A stretch of DNA of 40,940 nucleotides, from the NCBI GenBank assembly GCA_004293855.1, contig RDYZ01000205.1:1-40940 (forward strand). The letters run 5' to 3'. The first letter of the stretch is position 1. Each line of letters begins with the position of its first letter. The notes beneath the pieces are model-generated. The model saw only the letters and a program-made list of their open reading frames with translations, had not been told where the DNA came from and ran no database searches. The stretch is from Oscillatoriales cyanobacterium (GTDB lineage: Bacteria; Cyanobacteriota; Cyanobacteriia; Cyanobacteriales; Geitlerinemataceae). This document shows positions 13,073-39,306 of the stretch, one piece after another. Position numbers and translations under genes: made by a program.

Positions 13073-13942
13073 GTGTTTCGCGATATGCGTGTCGAGCCCT
13101 TTAACGTTCTGTCTTCGGATGATATTGACGATCGCCGTCGTCAGCTTCGGCGCCAGCGCAGTCTGCATCGCTGGCGCAATGGGGCGAGATTTGTGGTGTT
13201 GGCCGCGTTGACCGTTGGGGCGATCGCCTTGATTCGTCAACCGGGCTGGACACTCAAGGATGCGAGTGCCATCAAGGTAAGTGGTAATCACTGGTTGCCA
13301 GACGATACGATCCGCACCCTCCTGGATCTGAACTATCCCCAATCCTTACTCCGTCTCGATCCGAATGAACTGGCCCAACACCTCAGCGAATCTGAAACCA
13401 TTGCAGAGGCACGGGTTTACCGTGAATTGATCCCCCCTGCCCTCAAGGTCTGGGTGCAGGAACGTCAGCCCGTGGCGATCGCGTATCCAGCGAATACACC
13501 CGTCGTTTCAGGGTCAATGGCGATCGCTGGACGGGGAAGACTCGACGATCGGCTGGGTTTGATCGACGCGAGCGGCCAATGGATGACCTACAAAGATTAT
13601 GTGAATCGTCCCAAAATGCCACCCCTGCCCACCCTGGCAACCCTCGGCAATTACGACGACTACAAAAATCATTGGGCTGAGGTCTATGCCGAACTGTCCC
13701 ACAGTAGCGTCCAGATTGCACAGATTGATTGGCGTGACCCCCGTAACATTATCCTGAGTACTGAAATCGGGTCGGTCCATCTGGGTCCGATCGGGTCACG
13801 TTTGCCCGAGCAGATTGTTGCCCTCGATCGCCTGCGAAACCTGCCACAACAGGTGGGAGCCGATCGCATTCTCTATGTGGATCTCAGTGATCCCAGGTCG
13901 CCCTATGTGCAAGCACCATCGCCTTCCCAGCCACAACCCTAA
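13073..13942 (+). CDS. ftsQ: Cell division protein FtsQ (POTRA domain)
   Basis: N-terminal TM, POTRA-like 'KDASAIKVSGNHWLPDDTIRTLLDLNYPQSLLRLDPNELAQHLSESETIAEARVYRELIPPALKVWVQERQPVA'; directly upstream of ftsZ. GTG start. Confidence 0.88.
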   Translation: MFRDMRVEPFNVLSSDDIDDRRRQLRRQRSLHRWRNGARFVVLAALTVGAIALIRQPGWTLKDASAIKVSGNHWLPDDTIRTLLDLNYPQSLLRLDPNELAQHLSESETIAEARVYRELIPPALKVWVQERQPVAIAYPANTPVVSGSMAIAGRGRLDDRLGLIDASGQWMTYKDYVNRPKMPPLPTLATLGNYDDYKNHWAEVYAELSHSSVQIAQIDWRDPRNIILSTEIGSVHLGPIGSRLPEQIVALDRLRNLPQQVGADRILYVDLSDPRSPYVQAPSPSQPQP

Positions 13943-14152
13943 AATCCCCATTCTGTAACCGTAGATGCCCTTGCTATGATGAGTTGGCCTGAAAAATAAA
14001 TTGTCAGGCGGCTTTCAGCGTCCGTCATGGATGCAATGGCCAGTGCACGCGAGGCGATCGTCCTTGCAACGGGTGAAAGTTGACTTTTTAGGATCGAACG
14101 TAGACACTTCTGTTAAACAAAACTGCTACGATAAGCTCTCTTTTTGACTCCC

Positions 14153-15421
14153 ATGACCCAGGATCGCTCGAACCAGCTTGCGACACCAGCGTTTGCATCT
14201 GAGGGAGCCGCTCCGTTCCCCGTTGCGATCGATGCCGCCAATCCGTTCGGCACTCCCGGAACCACTAACGAACACCCACGAGATAACCGAGATAACACTA
14301 TGCCTGGGGAAGACACCAAAATCGGAGATATCATCCCGAGCAGCGTCGCACGGATCAAGGTCATCGGCGTTGGCGGTGGCGGCGGCAATGCCGTGAATCG
14401 CATGATTGCCTCCGATATGGCAGGGATTGAGTTTTGGTCAGTCAATACAGACTCGCAATCATTGGGGAACTCGGCGGCCAAGAATTATATGCAGATCGGC
14501 CAAAAGCTGACGCGAGGGCTAGGGGCCGGAGGTAACCCGGCGATCGGGCAAAAGGCGGCGGAAGAATGTCGTGAAGAGTTGATGGCAGCCCTAGAAGGGG
14601 CTGACCTGGTGTTTATTACCGCAGGCATGGGAGGCGGAACCGGTACGGGAGCCGCGCCATTGGTGGCTCAGTTGGCGAAGGAAGTGGGCGCTTTAACGGT
14701 GGGGATCGTGACGCGCCCGTTTGTCTTTGAAGGTCGTCGTCGTTCCGAGCAGGCCAAGTTGGGCATCGAAGCTCTGCAAAGCAGTGTGGATACCCTGATT
14801 GTGATTCCCAACGATAAGCTGCTGTCGGTGATTCCCGAGCAAACCCCTGTTCAGGAAGCCTTCCGTTATGCGGATGAAATTCTGCGCCAAGGGGTTCAGG
14901 GCATTTCAGACATTATTACAATTCCCGGCCTGGTGAATGTGGACTTTGCGGACGTGCGGGCGGTGATGGCGGATGCAGGGTCGGCGATGATGGGGATTGG
15001 TCACGGCTCAGGCAAGTCGCGGGCGCGGGAAGCGGCAACGGCGGCGATCGCCTCGCCTTTGCTGGAATCTTCGATCGATGGTGCCAAAGGTGTGGTGTTT
15101 AACATTACCGGTGGTACGGATCTGACGCTTCATGAGGTGACAGCCGCCGCTGAAACCATCTATGAAGTGGTTGATCCCGACGCAAATATCATTTTTGGAG
15201 CGGTTCTCGATGAGCGCCTGCAAGGTGAAATCAAGATGACCGTGATTGCGACAGGTTTTACGCCAAATGCGACCCCCATTCAGCGGGCGATTCCGACCAG
15301 TGCCGATATTTTCGGTCATTCAGAGTCCTCTAACGCGCCGTCAGAATCGGGGATCTCTCGTTTTGGCATGGGGCTTGATATTCCAGAATTTCTTCAGCGT
15401 CGCCGCTCTAGCGATTCCTAG
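14153..15421 (+). CDS. ftsZ: Cell division protein FtsZ
   Basis: Tubulin/FtsZ signature '[23 protein letters not shown]', '[17 protein letters not shown]', '[22 protein letters not shown]'. Confidence 0.98.
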
Positions 15422-16011: not shown

Positions 16012-19000
16012 ATGGCTACTTCTGTTCCGCGATCGCTGCTGCCCAAAACACCACTCCCCAAAGAGTTAAGTGTGCTTGAGGTGTGGGGATTTGGACTGAG
16101 CGGTTTGCTGCTATGGCTGGGTCCGGCGCCTGCGATGAATGCCGATCTAGGCTCTCAGTCTGTGTTTGTTTGGGGTTTGGCGACGATCGGCGGCATCTTA
16201 CTGAATTTGCAGGTGCAACATCTCGGGGTTCGCTGGCCGGAGCGATCGGGCGGCACGCCCAACTACACCACGGAACTGCTCAAGGATCGCCCCCTGTTTG
16301 CCATCTACGGCGCGATCGGCTACTTTCTCGGCTGGGTTTCGGTTCCCGCCATGAATGGCATCATTTTGACGGACTTGGTGGAAGCAAATCTCAATGCCAT
16401 TGGTTTGAGTGTGCCGGAAGTCTTGCTCCACATTGTGTTTACCAGCGTGCCGTTCATTGTTGCCCTGAGTGGCACGCGAGCCCTCGGTTTGCTGCACCTG
16501 TGCTTTATTGTGCCTGCGGTGGGTTTTTTGCTGCTGTTTTGTGTGCAGGGGTTGGGCTGGCTGGCGATCGCCCCGAGTAGTCCGAGCTTTCTCCCCGATC
16601 AATGGTCGAGCTTTTCACTCACCGGCTGGATGAAATGGTACTTTCTAGCGGTGTACGCGGCCTATGGCTGTGAAACCGCCTCCTCCTTCATTGCCGACAA
16701 TCGCAATCATCGCGCCTCTCTACGTAGCCTGTCCGTGGCCGCGATACTCTTGCCGATCGTCTACTTTGGCGGTTCCTGGCTCCTGATGCGTCTTGCCACC
16801 GATCCCAGCTTACAGGACAACGCCTACCTCAATCTGGTGGCCGTCTCTCGCCCCTTTTGGGGCAATGCTGCCACTCTGATTGTGACGTTTCTGATTGCGT
16901 CTGGATGTCTGCTCAGTTCAGCCACTGCCGTTGCAAACTCACCTCGCATTCTGTACCAGCTTGCGATTGATCGTTACTTCGCCCCCGTCTTTTCGATCGT
17001 CTCGCGGCGTGGCTCCTTCGGCCCTGGATTGATCTTTACACTCATCCTCAGTTTGGCCTGTCTCGTGTGGGGCAATGTCGAGCGAGTGGTAATGATTACC
17101 GGCACGGGTTACCTGTCCGGCATGATTGCCATTCACCTTGGGATCTGGCTGCAACGGGGCAAACGTGGTGTCTATCAACCCTATGGAGCCTTAGCCTTTG
17201 GTTTGTTGGAGCTGATCGTGTTGGTCGTCGGAGGGCTGGCCTGGAGCTGGCAAGATTTGCTCTTGGGGCTACTGATGCCCTTGGGGGTCTACGGCCTCAA
17301 TCAAATCATTGCCCGAATACCGTTGCCGCTCTTCTCGATGGCCTGGTGGTTTAGACGTTACCGTCAGGTGAGAACCGAGAGCTTTGGGCGCTTCGTGACC
17401 GTTCAAATTTTGGTGCTGATCTTTCTGGTTTGCGGTGGTACATTCACCGGCTGGCAACTGCATACCTTAGTCGCACTGCCCACCGAGGTCGCCAACAGTC
17501 CCGAAGTAACAACCAACCTCTTGGTGATTTTATTGCTGGTGATGGGGTTTGTGGGAGTGGCGATCGCCTGTTGGACAAGCCTCCCCCAGGTGGCGGCCAT
17601 TGCCGATGCCCGTGAACAATTTGAGCGGTTGTTTGCGATCGACAAAGACGGCATTGTCGTGATTGATAGCCACAGTGAAATTCGTCAGGCCAATCCAGCA
17701 GCCCAGACCTTCCTGGCCCACACCGGGCAAACGGTTGTCGGACAAACCCTGCACCAGTGTTTACCCGAACTTCCCCCCCAGGTCCAACAGTGGCATCATC
17801 GCACCGAAATTAAGCTCCGTTCTGCTCCCTCGGTGCGTGATCCCTCGCCCGATCGCACCCGAGTTCTGGAAATGACCATTTCGCGACTCAGTTTGGATGA
17901 AGACTCGGACTATTTGGTGATTTTGCGTGACATCACCGAACAAAAGCGAGCCGAGAATGCACTGCTCGATCAAGCTCAAGCCCTCGAAATTCGCGTGCGG
18001 GAACGTACGGCGGAACTGGAGCAGGCTAAGGAAAAAGCCGATGCCGCCAACCAAGCAAAAAGTACGTTCATTGCCAGCATGAGTCATGAGCTCCGAACCC
18101 CGCTGAATGCCATTCTGGGTTTTGCTCAGATCATGACCCGATCGCAAACCCTACCCACCGAACACCAAACAAACGTCGGCATCATCGCCCGCAGTGGAGA
18201 ACACCTCTTGATGCTGATCAACAACATTCTCGACCTCTCGAAAATCGAAGCGGGCAAAACCAGCCTCAACTTACAAAGCTTTGATCTCCACCAATTGCTG
18301 CATGATGTCCACGATCTTCTGCACTTCAAAGCTGACGATCGTCACCTCCAGATGCTTTTAGAATACGACGCCAACGATTTGCCGCGTTATATCTGTAGCG
18401 ATCCGGTTAAACTGCGCCAGGTTCTGATCAATCTGATTGGTAACAGTCTTAAATTCACCGAATACGGTGGGATTGCGGTGCGCGTGGCCCGATCGTCCCA
18501 GTCCGCCAATACCCTCGAATTTGAAGTCGAAGATTCTGGCGCAGGCATCGCCCCCGAAGAACTCGACACCTTATTCGATGCCTTTACCCAAACCGCCACG
18601 GGCCGACAGGCGCAGGAAGGAACCGGCCTGGGTTTGCCCATCAGCCGCCGCTTCGTGCAACTCATGGGTGGTGATATCACCGTCCAGTCACAACTCAATC
18701 AAGGCAGCATTTTTCGCTTTTCCATCCAAGTCACAGAGGCCAGTGCCGAGGAGGTGGTCAACCTCAAACCCCAACGACGCATCCTAGCCCTAGAACCAGG
18801 CCAGCCCCAGTATCGGCTGTTGATCGTGGATGACAAGCCCTTGAATCGTCAGCTTTTAATGAAGCTACTGGCTCCCCTGGGCTTTGCGCTGAAAGAAGCC
18901 AGTAACGGCCAGGAGGCGATCGAACTGTGGCAAAGCTGGCATCCTCACTTAACGTGGATGGATATGCGAATGCCCGTGCTTGATGGCTATCAAGCAACCC

Positions 19001-19443
19001 AACACATCCGCCAACTCCCCCCTCCCCCGGAGATCGAAACCAGCAACAAGATTATTGCCGTCACAGCCAGCATGTTTGAAGAGGAGCGAGCCGTTGTCTT
19101 GGCCGCCGGGTGTGACGACTTTTTACGCAAACCGTTTCGCGAAGACTCCATCTTCGAGATGCTCGCCAAACATTTAGATGTCCGCTTCATTTATGAAGAG
19201 ATAGAGGTCAGTGACTCCCCGCCCGATCGCACCGTCCTGCGGCCCCAAGATCTCGACGGTATACCGCGCGATATCCTGGATCGTCTTGTCGATGCGATTG
19301 TTTCCTCCGATCTCACTCAAATTTCCCAAGAATTAGACGAAATTTCTATCCATAGTCAAACCGTAGCGAAAGTCCTACGGAAATCCCTCGACCAGTTTGA
19401 ATATGAACCTATATTAGAATTAATATCTGACACAACAGTCTAA
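16012..19443 (+). CDS. Hybrid sensor histidine kinase with N-terminal APC-permease-like domain (APC-PAS-HisKA-HATPase-REC)
   Basis: About the first 500 aa are polytopic and APC-like ('KELSVLEVWGFGLSGLLLWLGPAPAMNADLGSQ...'); PAS 'RLFAIDKDGIVVIDSHSEIRQANPAAQ'; HisKA '[18 protein letters not shown]'; HATPase 'DSGAGIAPEEL', 'GTGLGLPISRRFVQLMGG'; REC 'LLIVDDKPLNRQLL...TWMDMRMPVLDG...DDFLRKPF'. Confidence 0.9.
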   Translation: MATSVPRSLLPKTPLPKELSVLEVWGFGLSGLLLWLGPAPAMNADLGSQSVFVWGLATIGGILLNLQVQHLGVRWPERSGGTPNYTTELLKDRPLFAIYGAIGYFLGWVSVPAMNGIILTDLVEANLNAIGLSVPEVLLHIVFTSVPFIVALSGTRALGLLHLCFIVPAVGFLLLFCVQGLGWLAIAPSSPSFLPDQWSSFSLTGWMKWYFLAVYAAYGCETASSFIADNRNHRASLRSLSVAAILLPIVYFGGSWLLMRLATDPSLQDNAYLNLVAVSRPFWGNAATLIVTFLIASGCLLSSATAVANSPRILYQLAIDRYFAPVFSIVSRRGSFGPGLIFTLILSLACLVWGNVERVVMITGTGYLSGMIAIHLGIWLQRGKRGVYQPYGALAFGLLELIVLVVGGLAWSWQDLLLGLLMPLGVYGLNQIIARIPLPLFSMAWWFRRYRQVRTESFGRFVTVQILVLIFLVCGGTFTGWQLHTLVALPTEVANSPEVTTNLLVILLLVMGFVGVAIACWTSLPQVAAIADAREQFERLFAIDKDGIVVIDSHSEIRQANPAAQTFLAHTGQTVVGQTLHQCLPELPPQVQQWHHRTEIKLRSAPSVRDPSPDRTRVLEMTISRLSLDEDSDYLVILRDITEQKRAENALLDQAQALEIRVRERTAELEQAKEKADAANQAKSTFIASMSHELRTPLNAILGFAQIMTRSQTLPTEHQTNVGIIARSGEHLLMLINNILDLSKIEAGKTSLNLQSFDLHQLLHDVHDLLHFKADDRHLQMLLEYDANDLPRYICSDPVKLRQVLINLIGNSLKFTEYGGIAVRVARSSQSANTLEFEVEDSGAGIAPEELDTLFDAFTQTATGRQAQEGTGLGLPISRRFVQLMGGDITVQSQLNQGSIFRFSIQVTEASAEEVVNLKPQRRILALEPGQPQYRLLIVDDKPLNRQLLMKLLAPLGFALKEASNGQEAIELWQSWHPHLTWMDMRMPVLDGYQATQHIRQLPPPPEIETSNKIIAVTASMFEEERAVVLAAGCDDFLRKPFREDSIFEMLAKHLDVRFIYEEIEVSDSPPDRTVLRPQDLDGIPRDILDRLVDAIVSSDLTQISQELDEISIHSQTVAKVLRKSLDQFEYEPILELISDTTV

Positions 19444-19445
19444 CT

Positions 19446-20792
19446 ATGGAATCCTCAAAAAATAACCTAATAGGTGAGATTGTTATCATCGATGATACTC
19501 CAGCCAATCTCCGTCTTCTCGCTAGTTTACTCAGCGATCGAGGCTATCAAGTGCGTCCATTTCCCAGCGGGAAACTTGCCTTAGCGGGTCTAGAGCGGTG
19601 TGATCCAGACCTGATTTTGCTAGACATTCAGATGCCACAAATGGATGGTTATGAAGTCTGTAAAATTCTGAAAGCCCAGCAACGCACCCGAGATATACCA
19701 ATCATTTTTATCAGTGCTCTCAGCGAAGCACTCGATAAGGTTAAAGCTTTTTCCTGTGGTGGTGTGGATTACATCACAAAACCCTTTCAAGCGGAAGAAG
19801 TGATTGCACGGGTCGGAACCCATATCAAACTCAGCCACCTGCAACAACAGCTACAACATCAGAACAGCTATCAGGCGTCTCAATTAATCGAGCAAAATAA
19901 AAAGCTTCAGACCATGAATCAGGAGCTACTCGAACAGTATCACTATGTGAAAGAAGCCCAACTTCAGCTCGTTCAAGCTGAAAAAATGGCGACCTTGGGA
20001 AACTTAATTTCAGGTGTCGCTCATGAGGTGAATAATCCACTGGGGTGTATTAACGCGAACTTACAAATTGCCCAGGATTACATCACTGAACTGCTGGAAT
20101 TTGTCAAACTCTCCATTACCGTGGGCATCCCCTCCGAAGGGGAGATCAACCAAGGTCTCCAGGACTTTGATCTTGAGTTTATCCAAACCGATTTACCGCA
20201 ACTCTTAGATTCGATTTTACGTAGCACGAATACCATTCGCGATATTAGCGATTCATTACGCATTTTCTCCCGCATTGATAATGAACAAAATAAGGTTTGC
20301 TTCAATATTCACGCTGGACTCGATAGTACCTTGCTCATTTTGCGCTATCGCCTGAAAGCGAACCACAAGCGACCGGAAATTCAGGTGATTAAGGAGTATG
20401 GTGCTATCTCTGATATTGAGTGTTTTCCGGGCAAACTCAATCAGGTTTTTATGAATATCCTGGCCAATGTGATCGATGCGTTTGAGGAAGCAAACCAGAA
20501 CCGCAGTTATAACGATATCGAAGCAGCTCCCAATCAAATTTGGATTCGGACGATGTTTGTGGATGGAGCCATCCTCCAGATTGAGATCCAGGATAATGGC
20601 CCAGGTATGAGCGCCACGGAACAGACTCAAGTGTTTAACCAAGGCTTTACAACCAAGCCGGTCGGTAAGGGAACCGGCTTAGGCTTGGCGATCGCCCGTC
20701 ACATTATTGAAGTCGAGCATAGTGGTTCGATTGATCTACACTCTGTCCCAGGAGAGGGATCAACCTTTAAGATCGGTATCCCAATTGTTTGA
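19446..20792 (+). CDS. Response regulator receiver-histidine kinase (REC-HK)
   Basis: REC 'IVIIDDTPANLRLLASLLSDRGY...DLILLDIQMPQMDGYEVC...DYITKPF'; phosphoacceptor 'EKMATLGNLISGVAHEVNNPLG'; HATPase 'NQVFMNILANVIDAFEE', 'DNGPGM', '[12 protein letters not shown]'. Two nt after the previous stop. Confidence 0.93.
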   Translation: MESSKNNLIGEIVIIDDTPANLRLLASLLSDRGYQVRPFPSGKLALAGLERCDPDLILLDIQMPQMDGYEVCKILKAQQRTRDIPIIFISALSEALDKVKAFSCGGVDYITKPFQAEEVIARVGTHIKLSHLQQQLQHQNSYQASQLIEQNKKLQTMNQELLEQYHYVKEAQLQLVQAEKMATLGNLISGVAHEVNNPLGCINANLQIAQDYITELLEFVKLSITVGIPSEGEINQGLQDFDLEFIQTDLPQLLDSILRSTNTIRDISDSLRIFSRIDNEQNKVCFNIHAGLDSTLLILRYRLKANHKRPEIQVIKEYGAISDIECFPGKLNQVFMNILANVIDAFEEANQNRSYNDIEAAPNQIWIRTMFVDGAILQIEIQDNGPGMSATEQTQVFNQGFTTKPVGKGTGLGLAIARHIIEVEHSGSIDLHSVPGEGSTFKIGIPIV

Positions 20793-21013
20793 AATCTTCC
20801 CCGTCGTCCCTAGGCGGGGTTTCCGGACTATGCTACCCGCACCGAACCTTTGGCAAACCATGAACAGTTGTGTGCCGATCGCCACGGCATAGGATGACGG
20901 TCGATCGAGGCGTGGAACCCAGGGCAAACTGTTCAATTGATCGGCTTACAGACTCCCCTTAAAATGCCCTAAATGGGTCTGACACAAATCGGGAGGGGGT
21001 TCACTAAATTTAA

Positions 21014-21085
21014 AGCCAGTGACGAGATTTGAACTCGTGACCGCTCGATTACGAATCGAGTGCTCTACCACTGAGCTACACTGGC
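21014..21085 (-). tRNA. tRNA-Thr (anticodon CGT)
   Basis: Reverse complement GCCAGTGTAGCTCAGTGGTAGAGCACTCGATTCGTAATCGAGCGGTCACGAGTTCAAATCTCGTCACTGGC(T) folds as a full cloverleaf; anticodon loop TTCGTAA; CCA not encoded. Confidence 0.96.
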
Positions 21086-21423
21086 GAATCGGCTAGAACA
21101 TCATAGCAAGGCTTTTCGGATTTGTTAACATTTTTGAGATTTTTTTCGCCAGAACAGCAACGCGGGGAAGATGACAGCTTCCAACACGAACCCATGACAG
21201 GGACGATCGATCACCCGAGAGTCGTGACCGGATCTCGCTGAAGACTTCATACGCTCTACTACAATTGACATAGTGCATACCGGATCTGGCCAAGACGGTA
21301 TCTCGATCGAGACCAGACATCCGCAGGGTGTCACATAACTCGCGACGTCATCTTTGGCCACCCCACAGTCGTTACTATTGAAAGTCCGCGAGTAGGCATG
21401 AGGTTTTGCGACGGGTAGTTCCT

Positions 21424-23379
21424 ATGTATGTTTTCGAGCAAGGCGATCTGTTTCAAGCCCTGTTGACATCGAGCCCGACAGCGATGGCGATCGTCGATCG
21501 TCAGATGCACTACGTTGCTGTCACCCATCAATGGACGAAAACGTTCGGTCTTGAGGAGGCCGACCTCCTGGGCACGAGTCATTACGCCCTGTTTCCACAG
21601 CACGGCCCAAGCTGGCAGCGTATCCACCAGGCGTGTTTAAACGGCCAAAGTGGTCAATGGCAAGAACCCGAATGTCAACTCCCCAATGGCAAGGTGGTGG
21701 CCGCGCAATGGTCGATTCGTCCCTGGCTGGGTTCACGAACCACGATCGAGGCAAGTTCAGAGGCTCCCCCCCCCATTCTGGGTCTTGTCCTATCTTGGGA
21801 AGATATTTCTCGAGCCAAACAGGCACTGCAAGCCGCCTGGACGCAACAAAAAAATCTGCATAGGCAGGTGCAAGCACTCACTCGTGCCCTCGAACACGAG
21901 CAAAAAGAGCGTCAGCGCATCGATGACATGCTACCCCTCGGACAAATTTCGATTAATAAATCGGGGGATGCGGTGTTTTGGCTGGATCACGACGGGGGAA
22001 TCTTCTACGTCAATGATTCCGCCTGTCTCTCGTTGGGATACACCCGTAACGAGTTACTCGAGATCAAAATTCACGATATTAATCCGGACTTTCCGCCCGA
22101 GATTTGGCCGGACTATCGCGATCAGGTGCGCGAATTTGGGTCGTTTACCTTGGATTCACGCCATCGACGCAAAAACGGCAAGATCTTCCCGGTGGAAATT
22201 ACGATCACGTCCCTGGTGTATCGCGGTCAGGAGTACATTTGTACCTTTGCGCGGGACATTACCGAACGCAAACGGGCGGAGGCAGAACTGTACCAGGCCA
22301 CGATCGCCGCTGAAGCTGCGAATCAGGCAAAAAGCTCATTTTTGGCGAACATGAGCCACGAGCTACGCACGCCCCTCAATGCCATTATTGGCTACGGCGA
22401 AATTTTGCAGGAAGAAATCGAGGATCTCGACCTGGATGGGGATGAATCGGAAGATTTGATGGCCGATCTCAAGAGCATCACGACGGCGGGACGGCATTTG
22501 CTATCGATTATTAGTGATATCCTCGACTTTTCCAAAATTGAAGCGGGGCGTATGGATCTAGCCCCTGAAGAGTTTGATGTTTCGACGCTGATCTACGAGC
22601 TGGAATCGACGGTACAGCCTTTGGTGGAGAAAAATACCAACACGCTGAAGGTAGAGTGCAGCCTGAATCTGGGGACGATGTACGCCGATCGCACCAAGAT
22701 CAGCCAAGTCTTGCTCAACTTGCTCAGTAATGCGGCGAAGTTCACCCACCAGGGAACGATCGTCATGACGGTGAATCGTCAAGAATCCCCCTTCAGCGAG
22801 ATTCGCAACGAGGCCGAACGCGACGCTGAAGCCAGCAGCAGTGCCGCCGACCCCACGGCCTGGATTTGCTTTCGGGTCAGTGATACTGGCATTGGTCTTA
22901 CGGATGAGCAGATCCAAAGTATCTTTCAGCCGTTCACCCAGGCGGACGAATCCACAACGAAGCGTTACGGTGGCACGGGTTTAGGTTTAGCCATCAGCCG
23001 CAAGTTTTGTCAGATGATGGGGGGCGATATCACGGTGGAAAGCGAGCTGGATGTGGGGTCAACCTTTACGGTTGATCTCCCCGCTGCGGATAAAGCGGCT
23101 GACCCCGCCGCCGGTTTGACCCAAACTCGGACGGATCTATCATTCCGATCGGGGTCAGAAATGGCAACGATCGAGCTTGATGAGGATCTCGAATCCGTCA
23201 CCCAAACCGAAACACCGCTCCTGAATGAAACCGCCGAACTGCTGGAGTTACCGGAGTTTGCGGGGGTTTCGTTTCATGATTTAGCCGAGGAAGAGGACAC
23301 CGAACCGCCCCGATCGTCGTTTTTGATCGATTCGTTTGACGATGATGCACCCCTAGAAGAAAACGAATGGTTTATCTAG
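21424..23379 (+). CDS. PAS-PAS sensor histidine kinase
   Basis: Two PAS regions ('[28 protein letters not shown]', '[30 protein letters not shown]'), '[19 protein letters not shown]', '[48 protein letters not shown]'. Acidic C-terminal tail. Confidence 0.93.
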
Positions 23380-23612
23380 CGTGAGTTCGGGTTAAGGAGT
23401 CCCTACTCTGGCGGCTTTCCTTCTCCCTAAATCCCCTTCGGCCCGCTTAGGGCATCGCCTTTCCCAGGACAGGAGAGCAACTTTTAAACACCCAATCCGG
23501 TTTCATGAGTAGCACAATTACGTTGATCGTTATTTAGTATCAACCTGCACCTCGACTCCACTCAGTGCTCATCGGAAATCGCTACTTTGTAGCCCGGATT
23601 TAGTATGAAGTG

Positions 23613-23753
23613 ATGTTTTTACCACCGTATTCATCGGACTTGAACCGCGTAGAGAAATTCTGGGCGCGAGTGAAGCTGATGGTTGGTCAGTTGCCTGAGG
23701 ATGGAATGGGCCTGCTAGAGGCTGTGATTTGCTCCTTGGTCAAGCCGTTCTAA
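23613..23753 (+). pseudogene. Remnant of an IS630-like transposase (C-terminal DDE region)
   Basis: Translation MFLPPYSSDLNRVEKFWARVKLMVGQLPEDGMGLLEAVICSLVKPF*, matching the LPPYSPDLNPIE-FW-LK pattern; no upstream transposase ORF. Confidence 0.75.
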
Positions 23754-23764
23754 CCAAATCGGGG

Positions 23765-24238
23765 ATGCTACAGCACCCTGCTCATTCTCAAATATCGGCT
23801 CAAAGCCAATAAACACCGTCCTGAAATCCAAGTTCTGCACCGGTATAGGGAACTGCCTGATGTGCAATGCTTCCCTGAGCAACTCAACACAGGTAGTGAT
23901 GAATATTCTAGCCAATACGATCGATCTGTTTGATGAAATGACTGAACAGTCTAGGTTTGCCGAGTTGGCAGCGCATCTGCAAACTCTAACAATTCAAACG
24001 GCCCTAACTGGCAGTACGGTCAAAACCCGCATTTACGATAATGGCAAAGGTTATGACGGAGGAAGCCAAAGCCCGCATCTTTAACGATTTATTTACCAAC
24101 AAAGGAGTGGGTCAAGGCACGGGGCGGGAATTGGCGATTACACGTCAGATTATCGACGAAAAACATAGTGGAATGATCATGGTAAATTTTGAGATGGGTC
24201 AAGGAACAGAGTTACTAGTCCTGTTGCCACTCCAGTAA
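23765..24238 (+). pseudogene. Truncated, frameshifted duplicate of the HATPase region of the downstream MASE1 kinase
   Basis: Nucleotide-level similarity to ~25720-26183, e.g. CTGCTCATTCTCAAATATCGGCTCAAAGCCAAT; frame breaks near CAACACAGGTAGTGATG (vs CAACCAGGTATTTATG) and AAAGGTTATGAC (vs AAGGGTATGAC). Confidence 0.85.
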
Positions 24239-24269
24239 AACTGTTTTCATCTACTCACTTCTTAGCTAT

Positions 24270-26183
24270 ATGCCGAAACAGAAACATTTGCCGACGTTTA
24301 AATTTTACTGGAAAGCGAATTTAATTTTTGCGTTGAGCTACGTTAGTTTGGCTGAGGCTTCTCGTTATTTGGCATCAACCCCCGACTCAGTCACACCAGT
24401 TTGGCCACCGGATGGGTTGGCAGTGGGTGCTGCGATCATCTATGGGAATGGCATACTTCCTGGTGTGTTTCTGGGGTCTTTTTTAGCAAATATTCAAGCG
24501 TTCTGGAATTTCCAGAATCCCATTGCAGTCTTGATCTCTGTGTTGGCTGTGCTGGGGATTGCTGGAGGAACAACGCTCGGAACTTGGTTGGGCAAGACAA
24601 TACTGGGGCATTCGACTCAGCAACGCCATTCATTAAATCGAGTATCTGACACACTCTACTTTTTGCTATATGCAGGCTTAGTCGGACCGATAGTGAATGC
24701 AACGATCGGTGTAGCAATGTTGGTTCTCGCACAGAAAGTGCCGCTGGAGTCTTATCACAGCATCTGGCTAATTTGGTGGATTTCAAATGTTGGGGGTATT
24801 TTCATTTTGACACCCTTGCTTTTAAGCGTACATTATTCGCTGCGATCGTCTCAACCAGAAGGGCTGTGGCAGCTAAATTCGACTCTCTTCAAAGCTTGGA
24901 TGGCTAAATTTTACTCAAAAGGCTTAGAAGCGCTAGTTTTGGTCGGGGCAATTTTTCTAATCGGGAAAGCGGCGTTCTGGAATAAATACCCTGTGGCCTA
25001 TATCCTCATTCCTTTGCTTGTGTGGTCTGCCTTTCGCCTGGGTTCTCTGGGTACAACCCTCAGTATGTTTATCATCTCAACGATCGCAATTCTAGGAACG
25101 GTTAGAGGCTTAGGCAGCTTTGCAGGCCCTGATCTCAACCAATCGCTGATGAGATTGCAGTCATTTGTTGTAGTCGTTGTCTTTACAGGGTTGATTTTAG
25201 GTGCAGTGCTCTCAGAAAAGGCATACTCTAAATCTCGTCTCAAAGAAGCCTATTCAGAGTTACAAATTACCAATGATATTCTCGAAAAACAAACTCAAGC
25301 GTTAGCAGATAAAAATCAACAGTTATTACAAACACTAGAAGACTTGAAACAGGCTCAAGCACAACTCATTCAAAGTGAAAAAATGTCTGCTCTGGGTAAC
25401 TTGGTGGCAGGGGTCGCCCACGAAATCAATAATCCGATCGGCTTCCTCAATGGCAGTATCAACAATGGTAAAGACTACGTACAGGATTTGCTGGGACATT
25501 TAGTTCTCTATCAGAAACACTATCCTAATCCTGTTGCCCCGATTCAAGACAATGCTGAAGATATCGATTTGGAATTCTTGAGTCAAGACTTACCCAAGTT
25601 ACTGACATCAATGGAAGGGGCTACTGATCGCATCAAAGGCATCAGTACTAGTCTGCGTACTTTCTCCCGTGCCGATACCACACACAAAGTCAGTGCCAAT
25701 CTGCATGAAGGACTAGATAGCACTCTGCTCATTCTCAAATATCGGCTCAAAGCCAATGAACACCGTCCTGAAATTCAAGTTCTGCGCCAGTATAGGGAAC
25801 TGCCTGATGTGCGATGCTTCCATGGTCAACTCAACCAGGTATTTATGAATATTCTAGCCAATGCGATCGATATGTTTGATGAAATGGCTCAACAGTCTAC
25901 TTTTGCTGACCTACAGGCGCATCCGCAAATCCTAACGATTCAAACGGCAATGGTTACCGCCGATACTGCCGAAATCCGCATCCGCGACAACGGCAAGGGT
26001 ATGACTGAGGAGGTAAAAGCCCAGATTTTTGACCACTTGTTTACCACTAAAGGCGTAGGGAAAGGAACAGGGTTGGGATTGGCGATCGCCCGTCAGATTG
26101 TGGAAGAAAAACATCAGGGGCGGTTGGAAGTTCAGTCTAAATTAGGGCAGGGAACTGAGTTTTTGATTGCTCTTCCGGTATAG
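24270..26183 (+). CDS. MASE1-domain sensor histidine kinase
   Basis: 'TPDSVTPVWPPDGLAVGAAIIYGNGILPGVFLGSFLANI' (MASE1-like), coiled coil, 'EKMSALGNLVAGVAHEINNPIGFLNG', '[19 protein letters not shown]'. Confidence 0.92.
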   Translation: MPKQKHLPTFKFYWKANLIFALSYVSLAEASRYLASTPDSVTPVWPPDGLAVGAAIIYGNGILPGVFLGSFLANIQAFWNFQNPIAVLISVLAVLGIAGGTTLGTWLGKTILGHSTQQRHSLNRVSDTLYFLLYAGLVGPIVNATIGVAMLVLAQKVPLESYHSIWLIWWISNVGGIFILTPLLLSVHYSLRSSQPEGLWQLNSTLFKAWMAKFYSKGLEALVLVGAIFLIGKAAFWNKYPVAYILIPLLVWSAFRLGSLGTTLSMFIISTIAILGTVRGLGSFAGPDLNQSLMRLQSFVVVVVFTGLILGAVLSEKAYSKSRLKEAYSELQITNDILEKQTQALADKNQQLLQTLEDLKQAQAQLIQSEKMSALGNLVAGVAHEINNPIGFLNGSINNGKDYVQDLLGHLVLYQKHYPNPVAPIQDNAEDIDLEFLSQDLPKLLTSMEGATDRIKGISTSLRTFSRADTTHKVSANLHEGLDSTLLILKYRLKANEHRPEIQVLRQYRELPDVRCFHGQLNQVFMNILANAIDMFDEMAQQSTFADLQAHPQILTIQTAMVTADTAEIRIRDNGKGMTEEVKAQIFDHLFTTKGVGKGTGLGLAIARQIVEEKHQGRLEVQSKLGQGTEFLIALPV

Positions 26184-37986: not shown

Positions 37987-39306
37987 GTGACTAACGAATA
38001 TCGGGATTCGCTGGCCGCTGTAAGTCAATTACTGAAAGGCCGATCGGTTAACGCATTGAGTCGTCTAAATCGCCGTTCTTTTTTGACCTATTTGGCCTAT
38101 ATTTCAGCGGCGCCGCTGCTGGGGGGATGTCAACGGGAATCACAGAATTATTTAAGTATTCAGGCCATCAAAAAATCCGTTCCGCGTGCCCTAATTCAAG
38201 CCTTTCGACGGGAAATGGGAGGAGCGCTGACCCTAGACTTCAATTCCGTGGCGCAGCGTCAAGATTGTTTCGATTTGCTGCAAAAATGGCAGCGAGAAGC
38301 GGGACAAAATCCGGGAAAAGCAGCGGCTCAAGCTGCCGATCGATCGCCATCCTCGGGTCTGTTCTCACGGTCTACATCCACAGCGTCGCAGGACTTGCCC
38401 CCCAGTTTGTGTCAGTTGGGGCATTACTGGATGGATCGGGCGGTGGCGCTGGAGGTGATTGCCCCCCTGGATCGCCTGAAAACCTCCTGGGCAACCTTGG
38501 CAGCACGATCGCCGTTTGACTGGTTCTATCGTCCCGTGTCACCCGTGGTTGCAACGTCTCCCCCGGACGCCGTGGCTGCGAATTTAACCGATCGGGCTTT
38601 GTGGGGAGTGCCCTATCGCTGGAGTAGCACGGCAATCGCCTATCGCACGGACAAGCTCGGAGATTGGCGACCGCGTGATTGGGTTGATCTGTGGGAGAAT
38701 CCCCAGCTTCAGGGTCGAATTATTTTGCCGGATAGTCCGCGCGAGGTCATTGGTCTGGCTCTAAAAGCCCTGGGCGCAAGCTACAACACCGATCGCCCCG
38801 ATCGGATTGCCGGTCTGGAGGATCTGCTCGCCAAATTGGGGAAACAGGTGTTGACCTACAGCTCGACGGAGTATCAGCAGGCGTTAACCCTAGGGGATGC
38901 CTGGGTGGCGGTGGGGTCATCCCAGGATATTGCCATGATGCCGGAGTATGGTCAGTCGGTGGCGGCGGTGGTTCCCGAGTCTGGGACGGCGCTGTGGGCT
39001 GATTTATGGGTGCAGCCTCGCGCCAATGCGGCGGAGGAGGATGCAGAACGCGATGCTCTGGCCCAGCGTTGGATCGAGTTTTGCTGGCGACCGGAGATTG
39101 CGATCACCCTATCGCTCACCAGTGGTGCAGCGTCACCCGGTTTATTTGGCCTCGATCGCGATCAGCTACCGTCGGATCTGCGGGAGGCGGCGCTAATCTT
39201 GCCGCCGGATGCTGTTTTGGCAAAATCGGAGTTTTTACGCCCGCTCACCTCTGCGGCAGCCGTGGACAGCTACCGCCAACTGTGGCAAGCTTTGCGCTCG
39301 GTTTAG
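37987..39306 (+). CDS. Extracellular solute-binding protein (PotD-like), Tat-type/lipoprotein signal
   Basis: 'NRRSFLTYLAYISAAPLLGGCQ' (twin Arg plus lipobox), 'LWGVPYRWSSTAIAYRTDKLGDWRPRDWVDLWENPQLQGRIILPDSPREVIGLALKALG'. Confidence 0.85.
   Translation: MTNEYRDSLAAVSQLLKGRSVNALSRLNRRSFLTYLAYISAAPLLGGCQRESQNYLSIQAIKKSVPRALIQAFRREMGGALTLDFNSVAQRQDCFDLLQKWQREAGQNPGKAAAQAADRSPSSGLFSRSTSTASQDLPPSLCQLGHYWMDRAVALEVIAPLDRLKTSWATLAARSPFDWFYRPVSPVVATSPPDAVAANLTDRALWGVPYRWSSTAIAYRTDKLGDWRPRDWVDLWENPQLQGRIILPDSPREVIGLALKALGASYNTDRPDRIAGLEDLLAKLGKQVLTYSSTEYQQALTLGDAWVAVGSSQDIAMMPEYGQSVAAVVPESGTALWADLWVQPRANAAEEDAERDALAQRWIEFCWRPEIAITLSLTSGAASPGLFGLDRDQLPSDLREAALILPPDAVLAKSEFLRPLTSAAAVDSYRQLWQALRSV

Follow-up and report, generated by a model that had tools for sequence, protein, structure and literature searches.

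A permease-fold membrane module fused to exchangeable signalling outputs in cyanobacteria: a candidate family of transporter-derived receptors

The fusion gene and its parts

The subject of this analysis is a gene in a 40,940-nucleotide stretch of DNA (contig RDYZ01000205.1 of an Oscillatoriales cyanobacterium; the window hereafter), which codes for a membrane domain of the amino acid-polyamine-organocation (APC) permease type joined to a hybrid sensor histidine kinase (HK). The gene, at 16012-19443, is a single open reading frame of 1143 amino acids, running from ATG to stop without an internal stop codon or frameshift, and its orthologue in a sister genome has the identical start and 83% identity across the full length. 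Its parts, with transmembrane helices abbreviated as TM, and the gene that follows it are these:

16012-19443, forward strand: whole fusion gene, with a 14-TM APC module, PAS, HisKA, HATPase, REC and a helical tail
16072-17316, forward strand: APC/LeuT-fold core, residues 21-435, 12 TM (AlphaFold2 (AF2), Foldseek, hhalign, PF13520 in relatives)
16102-16122, forward strand: TM1 segment GLLLWLG (residues 31-37), site of the G-x-G-I/V-F substrate motif (alignments to ordinary permeases)
16513-16518, forward strand: TM5 residues P168-A169 (alignments with ApcT and cyanobacterial permeases)
16654-16680, forward strand: TM6 segment YAAYGCETA (residues 215-223), retained pocket element (alignment)
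17338-17610, forward strand: TM13-TM14 hairpin, residues 443-533, putative coupling element (alignment, hairpin profile, model)
17647-17949, forward strand: PAS domain (PAS_4, residues 546-646; Pfam, above cut-off)
18055-18255, forward strand: HisKA (residues 682-748), H-box SMSHELRTP with phospho-acceptor H692 (Pfam above cut-off, motif reading)
18400-18732, forward strand: HATPase_c (residues 797-907), N, G1 and G2 boxes intact (Pfam above cut-off, motif reading)
18820-19164, forward strand: Response_reg/REC (residues 937-1051), DD/D984/T/K motifs intact (Pfam above cut-off, motif reading)
19243-19437, forward strand: C-terminal helical tail after REC, four helices (full-length model)
19446-20792, forward strand: REC-HisKA-HATPase gene, probable partner (open reading frame list, Pfam)

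By sequence, the protein is a hybrid sensor histidine kinase, with HisKA, HATPase and REC each carrying the expected features and with the catalytic motifs of both the kinase and REC intact; in REC, D984 lies within TWMDMRMP and the lysine within LRKPF. The tail at 19243-19437 matched no Pfam family, Hpt included.

Fold, coupling hairpin and transport motifs

Taken alone, the N-terminal sequence scores weakly, its own PF00324 match lying below threshold (16.8 bits where 24.6 are required, E 0.0028), and a PDB search with this single sequence gave no match. Its relatives are recognised clearly: the 90%-identical sister reaches 78.3 bits with PF13520 (cut-off 27), the best scores among family members are E 7.4e-22 for PF13520 and E 7.7e-14 for PF00324, and a profile of 36 members finds ApcT (E 8e-8) and LysP (E 2.6e-4) in the PDB. 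What is more, hhalign pairs the module with ordinary APC permeases over 425 columns (E 1.6e-21, probability 99.4%). The AF2 model of the N-terminal part (predicted local distance difference test score, pLDDT, 87.5; predicted template modelling score, pTM, 0.88) is matched in Foldseek by AdiC, y+LAT1, LAT1, ApcT, BasC, GkApcT and KimA, the best at E about 1e-9 to 1e-8 and with target-normalised template modelling scores of at most 0.73. Relatives and structure together secure the APC identity of a single weakly scoring sequence: by sequence comparison and modelling, the core is a member of the APC superfamily, with a predicted LeuT-type 5+5 fold of 12 TM. An earlier note, made from the letters of the window alone, had read the N-terminus as an APC-type permease continuous with a hybrid kinase, and had proposed Pfam searches (PF00324, PF13520), a count of helices on a predicted structure and a survey for the same architecture. 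The fold and the continuity were both borne out, the former by AF2, Foldseek and hhalign. The Pfam check succeeded for the relatives and fell below threshold, in PF00324, for the sequence itself, and the structure has the LeuT-fold core, set in a membrane part of 14 TM rather than a plain permease.

Namely, the 12-TM core is followed by an added hairpin, TM13-TM14, which in alignments is not present in ordinary permeases; a hairpin profile run across 386 cyanobacterial genomes matched only module proteins and their decayed remnants. Few stretches of the protein are as well conserved as VAIACWTSLPQ, with which TM14 ends; within it ACWTSLPQ (519-526) is near-invariant, and A519, W521 and T522 are present in 71/71 modules. 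Lysine and arginine are clustered in the predicted cytoplasmic loops and lacking from the predicted outer loops examined, a distribution that fits 14 TM with both termini inside. In the full-length model a single unbroken helix, 497-541, leads from TM14 into the PAS domain, its junction being modelled with low to moderate confidence. Between this helix and the start of PAS at 546 no domain was detected, and hence no STAC linker.

The motifs associated with transport have fared unevenly. Where TM1 of ordinary cyanobacterial permeases carries G-x-G-I/V-F, the module has GLLLWLG instead, with W35 at the motif site conserved in 69 of 71 sequences (97%). In TM5 the invariant P168 is followed by alanine at 169 in 66/71 (93%), the position at which a lysine stands in ApcT (K158), in the main cyanobacterial permease group and in most of the cyanobacterial permeases aligned. 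A TM5 lysine for proton coupling is not universal among APC transporters. As both the TM1 GxG and the TM5 lysine are gone, the core is most likely no longer transporting. The central region of the core is strongly conserved, and elements of the pocket are retained. In TM6, Y215, Y218, C220 and E221 are each 92-94% conserved, and this element presumably matches AdiC W202/E208, a correspondence taken from alignment rather than from superposed coordinates. In LeuT-fold carriers the pocket is lined by TM1, 3, 6 and 8 (PMC5809530), and on these helices the conserved residues of the module are W108 (TM3) and the four of TM6; the RxxYQxxxD motif following TM8 is likewise retained.

Comparison with the sister shows the core to be under strong purifying selection, with a ratio of nonsynonymous to synonymous divergence (dN/dS) of 0.04, where dS is near or at saturation. 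By dN, too, the core is the most constrained part: its value is 0.053, while the kinase has 0.086, PAS 0.19 and REC 0.34, the last being too high because of a frameshift in the sister. This apparent frameshift lies near the end of REC in the orthologue (L042 6385-9705) and may be an error of a draft metagenome-assembled genome (MAG). Selection would thus seem to maintain the pocket while the chemistry of transport has been removed, a pattern that suggests a receptor.

Distribution, exchange of outputs and origin

Among close relatives the module was matched in 21/59 genomes and 13/46 genera. The survey proposed earlier was carried out as a phylum-wide draw and yielded 44 full-length copies in 35/386 cyanobacterial genomes, every one of them fused, in open frames of 822-1194 amino acids; the weaker further matches were ordinary permeases or pseudogene fragments. 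The 386 genomes yielded no member of the clade that stands alone, with few candidates scored per genome, so that rare copies could still exist. Of 72 copies examined in all, L035 is cut by a contig end, L033 and L051 are broken inside the kinase, and the others carry an output; L069, also among the 72, contains a run of N. Named records with the module are all cyanobacterial (Coleofasciculaceae, Spirulina, Microcoleus, Nostoc, Pseudanabaena and others), as were all hits in a scan of the whole GTDB, which reaches close relatives only. Neither 72,556 plasmids nor PHROGs gave a match. A membrane domain that occurs across many cyanobacteria and is always fused to a signalling output looks like a transporter turned receptor.

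Decayed module pseudogenes with stop codons were seen at G083:C55, G205:C3 (4044089), G415:C1, G332:C21 and G311:C49, and some genomes with such fragments also hold intact copies. Module-kinase genes occur in tandem as well, three at G045:C1 1184759-1192660 and two at G032:C1 98568-103824, which suggests local duplication of the receptor. A possible second fusion, seen in APC proteins of 761-767 amino acids (L149 1285-3585; G005, G017, G018), was set aside, since the one tested has a C-terminal domain of SLC12 type (PF03522) and bears no relation to the module; the longer frames L142 and L137 contain no recognised signalling domain.

The outputs that follow the module vary considerably. They comprise PAS-HisKA-HATPase with or without REC, PAS-GAF-HK, PAS-HisKA_2, PAS-GGDEF-EAL and an HK placed directly after TM14, as well as GGDEF-EAL without PAS (L114) and PAS-SpoIIE (L062), SpoIIE being counted once. 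On a tree of 71 modules, these forms require at least 3 changes of output type, 5 changes in the presence of PAS and 4 in that of REC. The fusion of the window falls in a clade of 12 members, all of PAS-HK(-REC) form, with a branch support of 100 in the Shimodaira-Hasegawa-like approximate likelihood-ratio test (SH-aLRT). In other words, the module is a sensory unit, shared by the whole clade, whose outputs are exchanged, a property which, together with the coupling hairpin that it carries, goes beyond what the earlier note had envisaged. In about a dozen copies PAS is missing and TM14 continues straight into HK or GGDEF-EAL. PAS is consequently not the general sensor, and the role of input must fall to the APC module.

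In the tree the modules group in a clade of their own, to the exclusion of APC proteins that stand alone (SH-aLRT 99). Of the latter, the closest relative found is L070, which has about 490 amino acids and about 20% identity and groups with the module at SH-aLRT 90, a grouping in which two long branches meet and which supports the relation weakly. In alignment, L070 likewise lacks the canonical GxG and the TM5 lysine.

Receptor and transporter readings of the module

From the computed features, namely the reading frame, the fold, the motifs and their loss, the fusion, the swapping of outputs, the topology and the purifying selection, we infer that the module binds a ligand without transporting it, and we would propose a direction of signalling and a phosphotransfer partner as follows. 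A solute, or another signal from the membrane side, would occupy the former substrate site and change the conformation of the core. The TM13-TM14 hairpin would then convey this movement through the long helix to PAS and to the HisKA dimer. Phosphorylation of H692 would be altered, and with it the transfer to D984 of REC and from there, probably, to the REC-HK protein of the next gene. In particular, the ATG of this REC-HisKA-HATPase gene lies 2 bp past the stop codon of the fusion, an operon arrangement, and a co-directional HK and/or REC gene comes next at 12/12 loci of the fusion's clade and after 21/67 copies overall; at other loci a small REC protein takes the partner's place, twice with genes that overlap by 4 bp. 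We consider it probable that the protein is a membrane receptor kinase whose input derives from an APC permease, in all likelihood a non-transporting one, with the signal passing through the hairpin helix to the kinase. The wider proposal is more finely balanced in our judgement: an undescribed cyanobacterial family of output-swapping receptors, with a non-transporting APC fold, a two-helix coupler, outputs that include HK, cyclic di-GMP enzymes and a PP2C phosphatase, and a conserved ligand other than a standard alpha-amino acid.

That said, several points weigh against this reading. Loss of motifs is by itself no proof of loss of transport, and CbrA, without the Na2 site residues, still transports by means of proton coupling (PMC7918813). 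Which residues correspond in TM1 varies with the alignment, by one gap either way. The inter-domain confidence of the full-length model is modest (pTM 0.52, with pLDDT about 50 at 530-541). Finally, the neighbourhood of the module holds no conserved metabolic gene that would indicate a ligand, so that the gene context does not name one.

How, then, do other explanations compare? The module could be a transporting transceptor like CbrA, carrying the solute inward still, with flux or occupancy driving the kinase. The retained overall fold and RxxYQxxxD motif would suit this, as would the strong conservation of near-pocket E221, Y215 and W108, and CbrA moves histidine without a classical Na2 site, its kinase domain being dispensable for transport (PMC7918813). 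However, the TM1 GxG and the TM5 lysine are missing family-wide and the fusion is obligate, with no stand-alone carrier of the clade in the genomes surveyed, and we hold this possibility to be rather unlikely, if one to be taken seriously. That a classical APC substrate site here senses an ordinary amino acid or polyamine, as the earlier note had proposed, is unlikely. The nearest solved folds are indeed AdiC, LAT and ApcT, and a protein of the SBP_bac_8/6 extracellular solute-binding type is encoded at 37987-39306, at a distance of about 18 kb, but in TM1 the GxG that binds the amino-acid backbone has given way to the 97%-conserved W35, and the TM5 lysine is Ala169. The proposal thus finds no support in the site itself, while the cyanobacterial setting, the analogy with CbrA and the idea of a transceptor, all raised in the same note, are upheld.

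A somewhat more doubtful alternative is a sensor of a methylated amine or osmolyte, in which an aromatic pocket would bind a quaternary or tertiary ammonium such as trimethylamine N-oxide (TMAO), betaine or choline. L070, which groups with the module and shares its motif losses, reaches 543 bits with NF053774, a model of TMAO permeases, and the sister's sole NCBIfam match is to the same model (20.9 bits, E 1.2e-4). Yet the cut-off of 690 is not reached by L070, scores with NF053774 are as high for ordinary cyanobacterial permeases as for the modules, the N-terminal part of the fusion does not match it at E<=1, the tree carries its long-branch warning, and an osmolyte gene is not among the neighbours; a methylated-amine ligand is a lead only. 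It is very unlikely that the module serves as a mere membrane anchor or scaffold with PAS as the true sensor. PAS is present in most copies, but the dozen or so PAS-less copies take their output straight from TM14, the core is the slowest-evolving part of the protein, and mere anchoring would not call for 14 TM helices that are conserved and contain near-invariant residues. As for a chance or erroneous joining of two genes by frameshift or misassembly, the source genome is a fragmented MAG of 496 contigs. Every full-length homologue found reproduces the fusion, which is hence not an assembly artefact; it recurs in 72 copies and in single-contig assemblies (G007, G008, G045), and together with the single reading frame this rules out that permease and kinase are two genes and leaves such an error practically no probability.

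A receptor derived from an APC permease would be a bacterial counterpart of yeast Ssy1 and of Ks-Amt5. CbrA, CrbS (MxtR) and RpuS of Pseudomonadota resemble the fusion in having an N-terminal LeuT-fold carrier on PAS-HisKA-HATPase, with or without REC. Their carrier is of the SLC5 (SSS) family, with 13 TM and a soluble STAC four-helix linker, whereas the module is of the APC type (PF13520/PF00324), has 14 TM and a membrane hairpin and, unlike them, also drives GGDEF-EAL and SpoIIE; in Pfam the fusion gave APC matches only and no SSF match. In Ks-Amt5 of Kuenenia, an Amt ammonium transporter fused to a histidine kinase binds its ligand as a non-translocating sensor (PMC5764959). It shares with the module the repurposing of a transporter as a kinase sensor, and some module copies also lack PAS, HAMP or a STAC linker, but it has the trimeric Amt fold and NH4+ as ligand rather than a LeuT fold. 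Ssy1 of the yeast SPS sensor is a transporter-derived receptor with undetectable transport (PMC12958826), and it too is an APC-family permease turned receptor that signals by conformational state; it belongs, however, to the eukaryotic YAT family, senses amino acids and acts through Ptr3/Ssy5 proteolysis, whereas in the module the kinase is covalently fused. ApcT (MJ0609), AdiC and LAT/BasC share the fold of residues 21-435, but have the GxG-type motif in TM1 (ApcT also K158), and neither the extra hairpin nor a signalling domain. The NF053774 TMAO permeases and L070 are stand-alone, and the module is always fused. By analogy, the module probably works like the transporter-derived receptors CbrA, Amt5 and Ssy1, outside the SLC5-STAC type, and is probably not a working amino-acid permease.

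Transporter-derived receptors are considered rare (PMC11109136), and the bacterial cases so far are mainly SLC5-STAC proteins, Amt5 and S-component kinases. Searches of open-access literature gave no description of APC-fused bacterial kinases, an absence that is not proof. The family amounts to a natural and widespread series: a single permease-fold module is combined with varied outputs, whether or not PAS acts as a relay, and the conversion of LeuT-fold conformation into signal is consequently testable through output swaps. It also represents a candidate class of solute sensors for cyanobacteria.

As to the remaining surroundings of the gene, an apparently conserved neighbouring cluster of ATP-binding cassette ATPases proved to be a mixture of unrelated ATPases. 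Directly upstream of the fusion lie an ftsQ-type POTRA gene and ftsZ (13073-15421), while the sister orthologue is preceded by another gene. Downstream, at 19446-26183, the REC-HK gene is the first of three consecutive further sensor genes, followed by a PAS-PAS-HK (21406-23379) and a MASE1-HK (24270-26183).

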